Shown here piece after piece: positions 4,093 through 8,940 of a DNA stretch of 64,000 bases. The stretch comes from Bradyrhizobium ottawaense. Lineage in GTDB: Bacteria; Pseudomonadota; Alphaproteobacteria; Rhizobiales; Xanthobacteraceae. Each line of letters starts with the position of its first letter. Position 1 is the first letter of the stretch. The stretch covers positions 1,340,001 through 1,404,000 of the forward strand of contig NZ_CP029425.2 in the NCBI RefSeq assembly GCF_002278135.3. The letters are read 5' to 3'. Both the position numbers and the translations under genes were made by a program. Below the pieces are notes generated by a model. The model saw nothing but the letters and a program-made list of their open reading frames with translations. It did not search any database and had not been told where the DNA came from.

Positions 4093-4194
4093 GTCATTCC
4101 GGGGCGCGACGAAGTCGCGAGCCCGGAATCCATTTCTCCGCAGTTTCTGAGGCCCGATGGATTCCGGGTCGCGCTGTCGCGCGCCCGGAATGAC
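4093..4194. repeat. Intergenic palindrome, family B (copy 2)
   Basis: Same outer arms as the copy at 3155 (GTCATTCCGGGGCGCGACGA ... CCCGGAATGAC). It occupies the gap between the GntR and PhyH genes. Confidence 0.86.
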
Positions 4195-5062: not shown

Positions 5063-5932
5063 TCAGCCCTCCAGGACCTCCACCTCCAGCGCGGCGATCC
5101 CTTCCGCATCGGCCAGCGCCTCGATCCCGGCGATACGTTCGCCGTTGAACGTCACACGCAGCGCGATGCGCAGCTGTCCGCCGAGAATGACGGCAACGCC
5201 GATCTCGCCGTCGACCAGCGCCGTCCGCGCGGCCTGGGCGCGGCCCTTGTAGAGCTGCGCGACCGCGTCCGCGCCGCGGATCTCCGGCAGCGAGCCGAGC
5301 CGCACCGCGGCCATATCGGCGCGGAATACGACGTCGGGATCGAGCACGGCGAGCAGCCCCTCGAAATTGCCCTCGCGCGATGCCTTGAGGAAAGCATCGA
5401 CGATTCCGCGCTGGCGCGACAGGTCGGTCTCGGGCACCGGTGCCCCCTGCACGCGCCGCCGCGCCCGGCTTGCAAGCTGTCGCGACGCGTCGACCGAGCG
5501 GCCGACGATCGGCGCGATCTCCTCGAAGGGCACTGCGAACATGTCGTGCAGCACGAAGGCGAGCCGCTCCGCCGGCTGCAAAGTCTCGAGCACGACGAGC
5601 AGCGCCGCGCCGACGGAATCGGCCATCTCCGCTTCGCGCTCCCGCGTTTCGTCGACCGGCTCCGGCACATGCGGGCCCATCGGCTCTTCCTTGCGCGACT
5701 TCCGCGCGCGCAGCATGTCGAGGCAGATGCGCGCGACCACGGTCGTCAGCCAGCCGCGCAAATTCGCGACATCGGACATGTCGTAGCGGCTGACCCGGAG
5801 CCAGGCCTCCTGCACGGCATCGTCGACCTCTGCGCCGGAGCCCAGCATCCGGTAGGCGACCGCGCGCAGATGGTCCCTGCTGGCCTCGAACTGGTGGCTG
5901 AGAAAATTGTCTTCGAAGTTTTTTTCGGTCAT
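5063..5932 (-). CDS. ECF41-type RNA polymerase sigma factor with SnoaL-like C-terminal domain
   Basis: 289 residues. Sigma-2 (DDAVQEAWLRVSRYDMSDVANLRGWLTTVV) and sigma-4 (LHDMFAVPFEEIAPIVGRSV) are followed by about 100 residues of SnoaL-like fold (IVDAFLKASREGNFEGLLAVL). The linker GPHVPEPVDE corresponds to the conserved WLPEP-type linker of ECF41 sigma factors, here with HVPEP. In this family the C-terminal domain tunes activity in place of a separate anti-sigma factor. The usual NPDKL motif near the C-terminus is replaced by ADAEG, which may alter that control. The divergent neighbour is a carboxymuconolactone decarboxylase-like gene, the standard ECF41 partner. Promoter-like sites for both genes lie between them. 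Confidence 0.92.
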   Translation of the reverse strand: MTEKNFEDNFLSHQFEASRDHLRAVAYRMLGSGAEVDDAVQEAWLRVSRYDMSDVANLRGWLTTVVARICLDMLRARKSRKEEPMGPHVPEPVDETREREAEMADSVGAALLVVLETLQPAERLAFVLHDMFAVPFEEIAPIVGRSVDASRQLASRARRRVQGAPVPETDLSRQRGIVDAFLKASREGNFEGLLAVLDPDVVFRADMAAVRLGSLPEIRGADAVAQLYKGRAQAARTALVDGEIGVAVILGGQLRIALRVTFNGERIAGIEALADAEGIAALEVEVLEG

Positions 5933-5933
5933 C

Positions 5934-5960
5934 GGTCACATTCCCTCGTCGCGATCCGTC
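5934..5960 (+). promoter_or_regulatory. ECF41-type promoter toward the CMD-family gene
   Basis: GGTCACA (5934-5940), 16 bp, CGTC (5957-5960). The ECF41 consensus, as I recall it, is TGTCACA-N16-CGTC, so this has one mismatch and the exact spacing. It would start transcription about 65 nt upstream of the gene at 6032. Confidence 0.75.
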
Positions 5961-5968
5961 ATGCCCAT

Positions 5969-5995
5969 GACGAAGCCAATCCGGCCGATGTGACC
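5969..5995 (-). promoter_or_regulatory. ECF41-type promoter toward the sigma factor gene
   Basis: On the minus strand GGTCACA (5995-5989), 16 bp, CGTC (5972-5969), identical in boxes and spacing to the plus-strand site. The two -10 elements face each other across 8 bp, centred on CGTCATG-CC-CATGACG. This implies autoregulation of the sigma gene. Confidence 0.72.
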
Positions 5996-6031: not shown

Positions 6032-6487
6032 ATGCACGCCCGCATGAATCACCCTGTCATGGTCCTCCCCGAGGCCATGAATGTCCTGCAGTCCCTCGGT
6101 AATCTGACCAAGCAGGGTCTGCCGGAAAAGCTCCTGGAACTGGTGCACCTGCGCGCCAGCCAGATCAACGGTTGCAGCGTCTGTGTCGACATGCATCCCA
6201 AGATCGCCCGCAAGCTGGGCGAGACCGACGAGCGCCTGTTCGCCGTGTCCGCCTGGCGCGATGCGCCCTATTTCACCGACGCCGAGCGCGCCGCGCTGGC
6301 GCTGACCGAGGCCGTCACGCGTCTCGCCGATCGCGAGGATCCGGTGCCCGACGCAATCTGGAACGAGGCCGACAAGCATTTCGACGAGCGCGAGCTCGCA
6401 ACACTGGTCCTCTCGATTGCCACTATCAACGTCTGGAACCGGCTGAACGCGACGATCAAGATGCCGGTCGGCGTTTGGAAGGTGTGA
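6032..6487 (+). CDS. Carboxymuconolactone decarboxylase/AhpD-like protein
   Basis: 151 residues from ATG 6032, chosen because GGAGA lies 8 nt upstream. ATG 6017 and 6044 are alternatives. The AhpD-like redox signature is in HLRASQINGCSVCVDMHPKI: a CxxC followed by His, preceded by the Glu-containing helix (EKLLELVHLRAS). Such proteins act as alkylhydroperoxidase-like thiol enzymes. It is divergent from the ECF41 sigma gene and is the conventional target of that sigma class. The product is predicted to be cytoplasmic. The physiological substrate is unknown. Confidence 0.9.
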   Translation: MHARMNHPVMVLPEAMNVLQSLGNLTKQGLPEKLLELVHLRASQINGCSVCVDMHPKIARKLGETDERLFAVSAWRDAPYFTDAERAALALTEAVTRLADREDPVPDAIWNEADKHFDERELATLVLSIATINVWNRLNATIKMPVGVWKV

Positions 6488-6527: not shown

Positions 6528-7340
6528 CTATTCCGCCAGGAACCTGCTCACCACTTCGCCGAACTCCAGCGGGGCCTGCTCGAACATCCAGTGGCCGGCG
6601 TTCGGAATCATCGCCGTCCGGGCACCTGCGATATGCTCGGCAAGCACGCGCCACATCACCGAGAGGCTTCCCGTTGTCGCCCCGCCACCGATCAGCAGCG
6701 TGGGCGTCCGGATCGCCTGCGCATCGCTGAGCGTGTAGGGCCTGCGCTGCTCGTTGATCTGGCCGAGGAACGTCAGCGCGTTGTCGCGCAGCTGCTGCTT
6801 TGCCGCTGCCGGCACGCGCCGCCACGAGCCGTCACCCTCGATGCCCTCGTAGAAATTCTGCAGCGCGGCCTCGATATCGCCGGCGCGGATCATCTCGACC
6901 GATCGCGCGGTGCGCGCGGCCAGCGGCGGATGCGCGGGCGTGCCTTCCGGCACCGGCAGCGATGCGTCGAGATCGCCGCCCGGCTCGGCCAGCACCAGCT
7001 TTCGCACCAGATCAGGCCGCGCCTGCGCCACGCGAAACGCGATGTGTCCGCCGCGCGAATGACCCATCAGGTCGACGGGGCCGGGCCTCACTTGCTCGAT
7101 GAAGGCGATCATATCGGCGACATGCTGCGCCATCTTGTAATCGTCGCCGACGGCGTCCCAATGTTCGGGGAAGAAATGCCGCAGGCTGACCGAGATCACC
7201 CGATGCGTCTTCGACAGCGGGCCGAGCACCGAATACCAGGTGCGGAAGTCGCCGAGCGTGCCGTGCACGCAGACCAGTGGATGGCCCTCTCCGACTTCGA
7301 GATAGGCCATGTCGTAACCGTTGACGCGAAATGTGTGCAT
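6528..7340 (-). CDS. Alpha/beta-fold hydrolase (tandem copy 2)
   Basis: 270 residues with a complete alpha/beta-hydrolase layout: oxyanion region VCVHGTLGDFRTW, nucleophile elbow GHSRGGH (Ser), and late catalytic His in IPNAGHWMFEQAP. The nearest neighbour at 7343-8161 is a clear paralogue with the same N-terminus (VNGYDM.YL.VGE) and motifs; only 2 nt separate the two genes, so they are co-transcribed. No signal peptide is present. The substrate is unknown; the family includes esterases, epoxide hydrolases and C-C hydrolases. Confidence 0.88.
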   Translation of the reverse strand: MHTFRVNGYDMAYLEVGEGHPLVCVHGTLGDFRTWYSVLGPLSKTHRVISVSLRHFFPEHWDAVGDDYKMAQHVADMIAFIEQVRPGPVDLMGHSRGGHIAFRVAQARPDLVRKLVLAEPGGDLDASLPVPEGTPAHPPLAARTARSVEMIRAGDIEAALQNFYEGIEGDGSWRRVPAAAKQQLRDNALTFLGQINEQRRPYTLSDAQAIRTPTLLIGGGATTGSLSVMWRVLAEHIAGARTAMIPNAGHWMFEQAPLEFGEVVSRFLAE

Positions 7341-7342
7341 GA

Positions 7343-8161
7343 TCAGCTCGCCAGGAAGTCGAGAACCACTTCGGAGTATTTTTGCGGCGCCTGCTCGAAC
7401 ATCGGATGCGTTGCGCTCGGGATGATCGCGGTCTTCGAATAGGGCACATGCGCCGCGAGCGCATGCAGCACCTTCGGCAGCAGGCCCTTGGTCCGCGCCC
7501 CCAGGATGAACAGCGTTGGCATCTTGATCTGCTCCGCATCCGCCTTCGAGAACGGCGGGCGGTTGTCACGGACCTGCCCGATCAGGGTATAGGCATTATC
7601 GCGCAAATTCTGCTTCACCATCGCCGGCAGCCGCGGCCAGGTGCCGGCGCCTTCCAGCGTGTCCACGAACACGGCGAGGCCGCCGTCGACATCGCCGGCG
7701 GCGATCTTCTCGGCCGAGGCCACGAAGCGCGCCAGGAGCGGCGAGGGCCCGCCGGCATAATCGGGGTCGAGGCTCGCATCGAGTTCGCCGCCGGGCTCGG
7801 CCAGGATCAGCCGCCGCAACAGATCTGGCCGCCGCTGCGCCACGCGGAAACAGATGTGCCCGCCGCGGGAATGGCCCATCAGGTCGACTGGGCCGAGATC
7901 GAGCTTCTCGATGAAGGCGATGACGTCGTCGACATGCTGGGCGATCGAGTAGGTGTCGCCGATGCCGTCCCATCGCGCCGGGAAGAAGTGCCGCAGGCTG
8001 ACAGCGATCACCCGGTGCCGTTGGGTCAGTGGGCCGAGCACGCAGCCCCAGGCCCGGAAGTCGTTGAGCGAGCCGTGCACGCAGACCAGCGGCGGCCGGC
8101 CGCTGTCCTCGCCCACATCGAGATAGGGCATGTCGTATCCGTTGACGTGGAGGCTCTGCAT
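7343..8161 (-). CDS. Alpha/beta-fold hydrolase (tandem copy 1)
   Basis: 272 residues from ATG 8161 (MQSLHVNGYDMPYLDVGED). The frame stays open far upstream, but the extension is antisense to the ogt-like gene and is rejected. Motifs are VCVHGSLNDFRAW, GHSRGGH with the nucleophilic Ser, and IPSATHPMFEQAP with the His. It is the upstream member of a tandem pair arising by duplication. Its promoter should lie in the 135-bp gap shared with the divergent methyltransferase gene. Function beyond hydrolase is not readable. Confidence 0.87.
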   Translation of the reverse strand: MQSLHVNGYDMPYLDVGEDSGRPPLVCVHGSLNDFRAWGCVLGPLTQRHRVIAVSLRHFFPARWDGIGDTYSIAQHVDDVIAFIEKLDLGPVDLMGHSRGGHICFRVAQRRPDLLRRLILAEPGGELDASLDPDYAGGPSPLLARFVASAEKIAAGDVDGGLAVFVDTLEGAGTWPRLPAMVKQNLRDNAYTLIGQVRDNRPPFSKADAEQIKMPTLFILGARTKGLLPKVLHALAAHVPYSKTAIIPSATHPMFEQAPQKYSEVVLDFLAS

Positions 8162-8296
8162 TCTTAGCTCGCGAAGGGGTTGGAACTCCTGTGCAAGATT
8201 CCCGGAAACCGGGTGGATCGCAACTATTTCCAAGCCTAGATTTGGCCCGAGATCACATTGGGGGCATGCGAGGCAACGCAAGCCAGGAACCAAGCC

Positions 8297-8850: not shown

Positions 8851-8940
8851 CGTAGGGTGGGTTAGCCGAAGGCGTAACCCACCACCTTTGTCTCCGCAGA
8901 AGCAGAAGAGGTGGGTTACGCTTCGCTAACCCACCCTACG
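8851..8940. repeat. Intergenic palindrome, family A (copy 2)
   Basis: CGTAGGGTGGGTTAGC ... GCTAACCCACCCTACG with inner GGCGTAACCCACC / GGTGGGTTACGC. This is the GTTAG sub-type of family A. It lies between the convergent ogt and acyl-CoA ligase stops and may help end both transcripts. Confidence 0.87.

Follow-up and report, generated by a model that had tools for sequence, protein, structure and literature searches.

How is a sigma factor gene transcribed together with its divergent neighbour when two promoters of one and the same type face each other in the region between them? The question is raised by a locus in the window, by which we mean the whole stretch of 64,000 nucleotides analysed here (positions 1,340,001–1,404,000 of a single-contig genome of 8,589,152 bases). 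An ECF sigma factor gene occupies positions 5063–5932 of the minus strand and encodes 289 aa with sigma region 2, sigma region 4 and a SnoaL_2-like C-terminal extension. To its right, at 6032–6487 of the plus strand, lies a carboxymuconolactone decarboxylase (CMD)/AhpD-like gene encoding 151 aa, with a PF02627 domain and a CSVC (CxxC) motif.

Mirror-image promoters between the sigma factor gene and the CMD gene

The whole mirror-image element spans 62 bp (5934–5995), with the sigma gene to its left and the CMD gene to its right. On the plus strand, P_COE (5934–5960) combines a −35 element GGTCACA (5934–5940), a spacer of 16 bp and a −10 element CGTC (5957–5960), and is inferred to drive the CMD gene. 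On the minus strand, P_sigma (5995–5969) repeats this arrangement with GGTCACA at 5995–5989, 16 bp and CGTC at 5972–5969, and would drive the sigma gene itself. The two −10 elements stand face to face, 8 bp apart, in the inverted repeat CGTCATG-CC-CATGACG (5957–5972), for which a palindrome scan returned perfect arms of 9 nt and 7 nt. The boxes are those of the TGTCACA-N16-CGTC consensus of ECF41 target promoters (Wecke et al. 2012, PMC3426412), except that the first base of the −35 is G instead of T. An earlier note on this DNA had described GGTCACA-N16-CGTC on both strands, and its boxes, 16-bp spacers, 8-bp gap, 62-bp span and repeat were all confirmed at these positions. Its further statement that the promoters overlap so that each transcript crosses the −35 of the other follows from the coordinates, and its proposal that the sigma gene is its own target is supported in that a consensus box faces the sigma gene, making autoregulation probable.

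The loose single box GTCACA-N14–18-CGTC was found twice in the window against 0.82 expected, and 15 of 100 shuffles also reached two matches, so that one box alone means little. By comparison, the full mirror pair at the given spacing occurred once in the window, with 0 mismatches, when 0.01 matches were expected even with up to 3 mismatches allowed, and only 1 of 100 shuffles gave a match. These shuffles, together with a reversed control pattern that returned no match in any of the four phylum-draw tables described below, rule out a chance origin of the pair. At the scale of the 8.59-Mb genome, GGTCACA-N15–17-CGTC is not enriched, because its 13 sites compare with 16 for the reversed control. 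The stricter pattern DGTCACA-N16-CGTCWT, chosen after relatives had been inspected, matched 2 sites in the same genome, both belonging to this pair, with 0 in the control. This pattern search found no other such site in the genome, which is in line with the single target reported for ECF41 (PMC3426412).

Other parts of the window also contain palindromic intergenic sequences. The one at 8851–8940 is REP-like, with 16-nt perfect outer arms and 19-nt inner arms at 84%, and is flanked by ORFs that, from their appearance by eye, we take to be a methylguanine methyltransferase and an acyl-CoA synthetase. A second element at 4093–4194, reading GTCATTCCGGG ... CCCGGAATGAC with inner 12-nt arms, is located between a PhyH gene and a GntR/FCD regulator gene. 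At 6528–8165 of the minus strand, two adjoining ORFs resemble paralogous alpha/beta hydrolases, the first of which matches Abhydrolase_6.

A sigma factor from a sister clade of ECF41

The sigma protein matches Sigma70_r2 and Sigma70_r4 of Pfam, and its SnoaL_2 match (E 2.9e-4, 21.8 bits) lies under the Pfam cut-off of 27. The solved structure nearest to it by sequence is that of Mycobacterium tuberculosis SigJ (PDB 5xe7; E 1.4e-42, query residues 13–246), which also resembles it in having a SnoaL_2 extension (PMC7730460). The closest named locus among the matches listed is that of Bradyrhizobium sp. Rc3b, with a sigma protein 98% identical. The architecture of ECF41, with regions 2 and 4 followed by a SnoaL/NTF2-like C-terminal extension, could be recognised from the Pfam and SigJ matches, and the promoter trait is present as a TGTCACA-N16-CGTC type box before an adjoining COE gene. 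With the NCBIfam SigJ/SigX4 models as a stand-in for ECF41 class membership, the protein remained below both cut-offs (NF007214, 233.6 vs 271 bits; TIGR02957, 211.2 vs 323.25).

The sequence motifs point in the same direction as these models. The YVGPWLPEP/WLPEP motif of the ECF41 linker (PMC3426412; PMC7730460) is represented by WLP in 31 of 31 classical representatives and in 0 of 50 representatives of this sigma family; the protein of the window has EPMGPHVPEPV at the WLPEP site of the sigma2–sigma4 linker. Likewise, NPxKL (NPDKL in PMC7730460) and D-GG were found in 31/31 classical representatives, and those columns of the window protein read LADAEGI and RAD-MAAV. In a tree of 79 representatives, from which L117 and L138 were left out for their frameshifted C-termini, 48 members of this family were split from the 31 classical ones with branch support of 100/100, in a bootstrap analysis that had not fully settled. 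The sigma factor is, as far as motifs and tree can tell, a relative in an ECF41 sister clade without the hallmark motifs, not a typical ECF41. The name ECF41 used in the earlier note therefore stands for the promoter type, given the consensus TGTCACA-N16-CGTC, and does not hold for the protein, which lacks the hallmark motifs and misses the NCBIfam cut-offs. Compared with the ECF41 system of PMC3426412, the promoter consensus, the type of CMD neighbour and the fused C-terminal extension are alike, whereas the sigma proteins here, without WLPEP, D-GG and NPxKL, form a separate clade. Other SnoaL-type groups have been named as ECF56, ECF205, ECF294 and ECF295 (PMC7730460; PMC8999054).

Conservation and spacing of the promoter pair

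The 80 nearest loci, being the best 80 of at least 548 confirmed loci from named records and leaning to Bradyrhizobium, were scored for the presence of both boxes, with a combined total of no more than 2 mismatches and with 16-bp spacers only. Both boxes were kept in 70 of these 80, with gaps of 8, 9, 11 or 12. The pair was free of mismatches at gap 8 in 58 loci and at gaps 9 and 11 in one locus each, and 10 further loci had one or two mismatches at gap 8, 9 or 12. The 10 loci that failed by this scoring include L078, which keeps both boxes with a 17-bp left spacer. Among the 31 loci L055–L085, nine had one or both boxes lost or weakened (L055, L058, L060, L061, L066, L068, L071, L076 and L083), so the pair is not indispensable. 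The earlier note had named loss of the second box from genomes with the gene pair as evidence against its reading; such loss is not seen in 70 of the 80 nearest loci (best 80 of at least 548) and does apply to part of the distant relatives, as the failing loci other than L078 indicate.

When the family was reduced to 50 representatives (85% protein-identity clusters), the strict pair was present in 34, with gap 8 in 28, gap 9 in three and gap 11 in three; without the 10 representatives fetched via the pair pattern, it was present in 24 of 40 (gap 8 in 22, gaps 9 and 11 in one each). Since the pattern demanded the boxes, they are invariant in the 28 gap-8 representatives by construction and only unselected columns are informative, among which T precedes the right GACG in 28/28 and A follows the left CGTC in 26/28. 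Named records with the pair belong to Pseudomonadota and Actinomycetota, and metagenome assemblies extend it to Chloroflexota, Thermomicrobiota and Myxococcota. Plasmid records with sigma relatives number 454, many of them from Rhizobium and Streptomyces, and the two plasmid loci that were fetched (L176, Rhizobium etli p42e; L177, Shinella zoogloeoides) both contain the face-to-face pair at gap 8. Two variants may be recorded here: in Streptomyces rimosus (L085/L128) the paired promoters form an almost perfect palindrome of 60 bp with nearly identical half-sites, and in Streptantibioticus ferralitis (L084) a repeated middle places several GACG elements between the two outer boxes.

The spacing was further examined by even draws from four phyla (1,085 genome rows) with the pattern GTCACA-N16-CGTC-N(0–30)-GACG-N16-TGTGAC. 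Matches were found in 10 of 398 genomes of Pseudomonadota, all at gap 8; in 9 of 396 of Actinomycetota (gap 8 in three, 9 in two, 11 in four); in 6 of 151 of Chloroflexota (gap 8 in four, 9 in one, 23 in one); and in 1 of 140 of Myxococcota, where the gap-8 match is the genome used as the draw centre. Leaving out five genomes known beforehand to carry the pair (G000, G453, G459, G457 and G460), 21 newly drawn matches remained, including G020 and G058, which had already been met as sigma matches, with gap 8 in 14, gap 9 in three, gap 11 in three and gap 23 in one. If gaps were spread evenly over the 31 lengths allowed, at least 14 of 21 at one named gap would have a probability of about 1e-16, a value that ignores the shared descent of these matches. 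The gap-23 case (L174, genome G1044 of the Chloroflexota draw) has a duplicated middle and a CMD gene, and a stretch of 1.5 kb around the pair showed no recognisable sigma gene; it could not be oriented for lack of a sigma match, and the same applies to L137, which stops at a contig end. With both boxes and spacing kept beyond the genus in the nearest loci and in the phylum draws, the conservation check suggested in the earlier note came out positive, and the element is real and conserved.

Other layouts of the same boxes are less regular. In Actinomycetota, 5 of 392 genomes had the two boxes arranged back to back, and the gaps of these pairs were 10, 12, 13, 18 and 26. For a classical comparison, 30 alphaproteobacterial ECF41-type loci were fetched of 35 matches and scanned over 800 bp upstream of the sigma gene. 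One box lay 480–710 bp upstream of sigma in 15 of the 30, one locus had a box just upstream of sigma and three had two boxes back to back, a difference from the present element; within the scanned region, no box was found by pattern in 11 and the face-to-face layout in none. This contrast implies that, within the set of loci examined, to have the boxes face to face is a property of this clade and not of divergent ECF41-type loci in general. The geometry is, on these counts, the unusual feature, with a narrow choice of spacings across phyla.

What surrounds the boxes drifts considerably. Mean pairwise identity is 0.50 in the left spacer, 0.60 in the right spacer and 0.56 in the inner gap, and the CMD start lies anywhere between 11 and 119 bp from the right −35 (23 representatives). 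Pyrimidine-rich plus-strand columns at the Shine–Dalgarno region are conserved across the aligned representatives; in the window, the likely Shine–Dalgarno sequence of the sigma gene, GAGGGA (5942–5947, minus strand, read by eye), lies inside the P_COE spacer. Outside the boxes, half-sites are no more alike within a locus (0.364) than between loci (0.351), with no significant excess (p = 0.16). The partner gene also varies: in the 7 loci examined with Pfam, out of 16 inspected, the divergent gene differs from CMD, being glyoxalase-like (L057, L172, L175), polyketide-cyclase-like (L075), NmrA/epimerase-like (L138), MFS (L067) or ABC ATPase (L136), and at L062, L064, L080, L085, L134 and L135 the partner was not identified. 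Judging from these loci, the pair remains next to the sigma gene even where the divergent gene is a different one. Six actinobacterial loci (L059, L065, L070, L073, L074 and L082) have both −10 elements altered jointly, to TGTC on the left and GGTC on the right, at gap 8 in five and gap 9 in L059, and the four of them placed in the tree fall in two separate parts. Such a joint change is as expected if one sigma factor reads both, hinting at a changed −10 preference of the sigma factors at these loci.

Predicted interlocking of the starts and the proposed sharing of one site

A possible ground for the favoured gap is offered by the position of the starts. The mapped ECF41 start in S. meliloti reads CGTC-ATGGTGTC-G (PMC6180224 Table 1), whose last letter was taken as +1 because a row with a lower-case start has it there; inspection of the sequence places this start 24 nt before an ATG. 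Starts in B. licheniformis and R. sphaeroides are also G, 22/23 nt before the start codon (PMC3426412); in our reading they could not be aligned to a −10 element. A scan of 32 classical loci gave 21 boxes; at the ninth position after CGTC, 18 of them have a purine, several other positions being purine-rich too, and at the eighth 15 have a pyrimidine. Carrying CGTC-N8-G over from the S. meliloti promoter and these boxes predicts +1 (G) of the CMD transcript at 5969 (+), with a 63-nt leader, and +1 (G) of the sigma transcript at 5960 (−), with a 28-nt leader, 9 bp apart. At gap 8, each promoter would then have its +1 G base-paired with the final C of the opposite −10, and we hypothesise that this pairing accounts for the spacing. 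Read by eye, position nine is a purine in either direction in the gap-11 cases and in only 3 of 8 directions in the four gap-9 cases; interlocking at gap 8 is thus not obligatory, because these gaps exist and most gap-9 cases lack that purine.

We consider it likely that the element works as a symmetric bidirectional promoter with autoregulation: the protein encoded by the neighbouring sigma gene would read it, and a polymerase bound in one direction would exclude one bound in the other. If the behaviour of ECF41 applies, a signal acting on the SnoaL-like extension would free the sigma factor, which would bring polymerase to the site, where one holoenzyme could dock in either orientation, rightward to the CMD gene or leftward to its own sigma gene, both halves presumably being active and using one melted region. 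By footprint arithmetic, the areas taken up by two holoenzymes, each from −55 to +20, would have 48 bp in common, so that two polymerases should exclude each other and each initiation towards the enzyme gene would shut out one towards the sigma gene. Synthesis of sigma factor and enzyme would rise together yet compete for one site, and the feedback would thereby be capped. Positive autoregulation would be shared out at one initiation site, with no anti-sigma factor gene known next door, and the regulator may choose each time between more of itself and the enzyme.

The earlier note had offered a switch or mutual occlusion as outcomes. Competition between the halves is plausible from the geometry, and the two-state switch finds no support, since the same holoenzyme would serve both halves. 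A bistable toggle, unlikely because both directions need the same sigma factor as activator, was rejected. Basal transcription was too low for competition at five bidirectional promoters tested in E. coli (PMC12825309), so that competition should matter here only if the promoter is strongly induced; the Grainger group reported competition at activated, not basal, E. coli bidirectional promoters, with lower expression noise when there was competition (PMC12825309). It is conceivable, though we hold it rather doubtful, that the element is an old device by which a sigma factor without an anti-sigma factor checks its own feedback through one shared, interlocked start site, its output gene having been swapped across several phyla. 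Each −10 would then supply the start base of the other promoter, so that the spacing could hardly drift, and the choice point would have stayed intact across several phyla as outputs were exchanged (CMD, glyoxalase-like, NmrA-like, transporter).

A simpler explanation is that two ordinary promoters were packed into a short intergenic region, with an overlap of no regulatory meaning and a spacing kept by descent and the sigma leader. The sigma start codon does lie 2 bp from the −35 of the CMD promoter in 62 of 77 scored loci (from the best 80 of at least 548), and the Shine–Dalgarno region fills part of the left spacer, so that the left half cannot change length freely; the missing basal competition at E. 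coli bidirectional promoters (PMC12825309) would fit as well. Nevertheless, the inner gap is free of leader constraints, yet measures 8, 9 or 11 bp in 20 of the 21 new matches, spacers and gap diverge in sequence (0.50, 0.60 and 0.56), and back-to-back pairs vary in gap, which makes this explanation unlikely.

That only the enzyme-side promoter is used, the sigma-side box being a relic or weak, would agree with L060 and L076, which retain the left box alone with −10 GGTC, and with the 15 of 30 classical loci whose lone box, 480–710 bp upstream of sigma, would precede another gene. It seems improbable in view of L068 and L071, which retain the sigma-side box alone, and of both boxes being mismatch-free at gap 8 in 58 of 80 loci (best 80 of at least 548). 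A palindromic operator, bound by a separate dimeric regulator repressing both genes, is suggested by the perfect 9-nt and 7-nt inverted arms; but the strongly conserved bases are those of two −35/−10 promoters with spacers of 16 bp, symmetry outside the boxes is no greater within than between loci, and the element stays when the target gene changes, so that we give this idea hardly any credence.

The shared promoter that we favour has precedents in part. Among 55 divergent <ECF< >COE> ECF41 loci, a box precedes the ECF gene in 36 and the COE gene in 41, "often both" (PMC3426412 Table 4); autoregulation is thus not the new part, since such paired boxes were already reported, and in the text passages of that paper covered here no description of their mutual layout was found. 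The sigma70 bidirectional promoters of Warman and Grainger (PMC12825309; PMC10268837) are similar in their pseudo-symmetric DNA, and the predicted starts and footprints would also give the present element their reciprocal −10/start overlap, their divergent starts 7–25 bp apart and their exclusion of one polymerase by the other. They differ in depending on sigma70 and in having a shared −10 element and starts most often 18 bp apart. The present element goes instead with an ECF sigma factor; its two −10s are distinct and separated by 8 bp, its starts are predicted to lie 9 bp from each other, a full −35 stands on either side, it occurs in several phyla, and one product is the sigma factor itself. 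Divergent ECF41 box pairs (PMC3426412) and exclusion at sigma70 promoters are therefore known already, and what appears new is the fixed face-to-face ECF geometry: no report of a fixed face-to-face sigma/target spacing was found in the literature searched, including text passages of PMC3426412, PMC6180224, PMC8103513, PMC8999054, PMC7730460, PMC12825309 and PMC10268837, which is weak evidence of absence.

The analysis defines a sister clade of ECF41 that has a motif set of its own and a promoter pair for which the DNA pattern suffices to recognise it in genomes. Should the two halves both fire and compete, promoter geometry alone, instead of a repressor or an anti-sigma factor, would limit a self-activating regulator and fix the ratio of regulator to output, and the locus would provide a clean system in which to test what purpose bidirectional promoters serve, both directions being served by one alternative-sigma holoenzyme.
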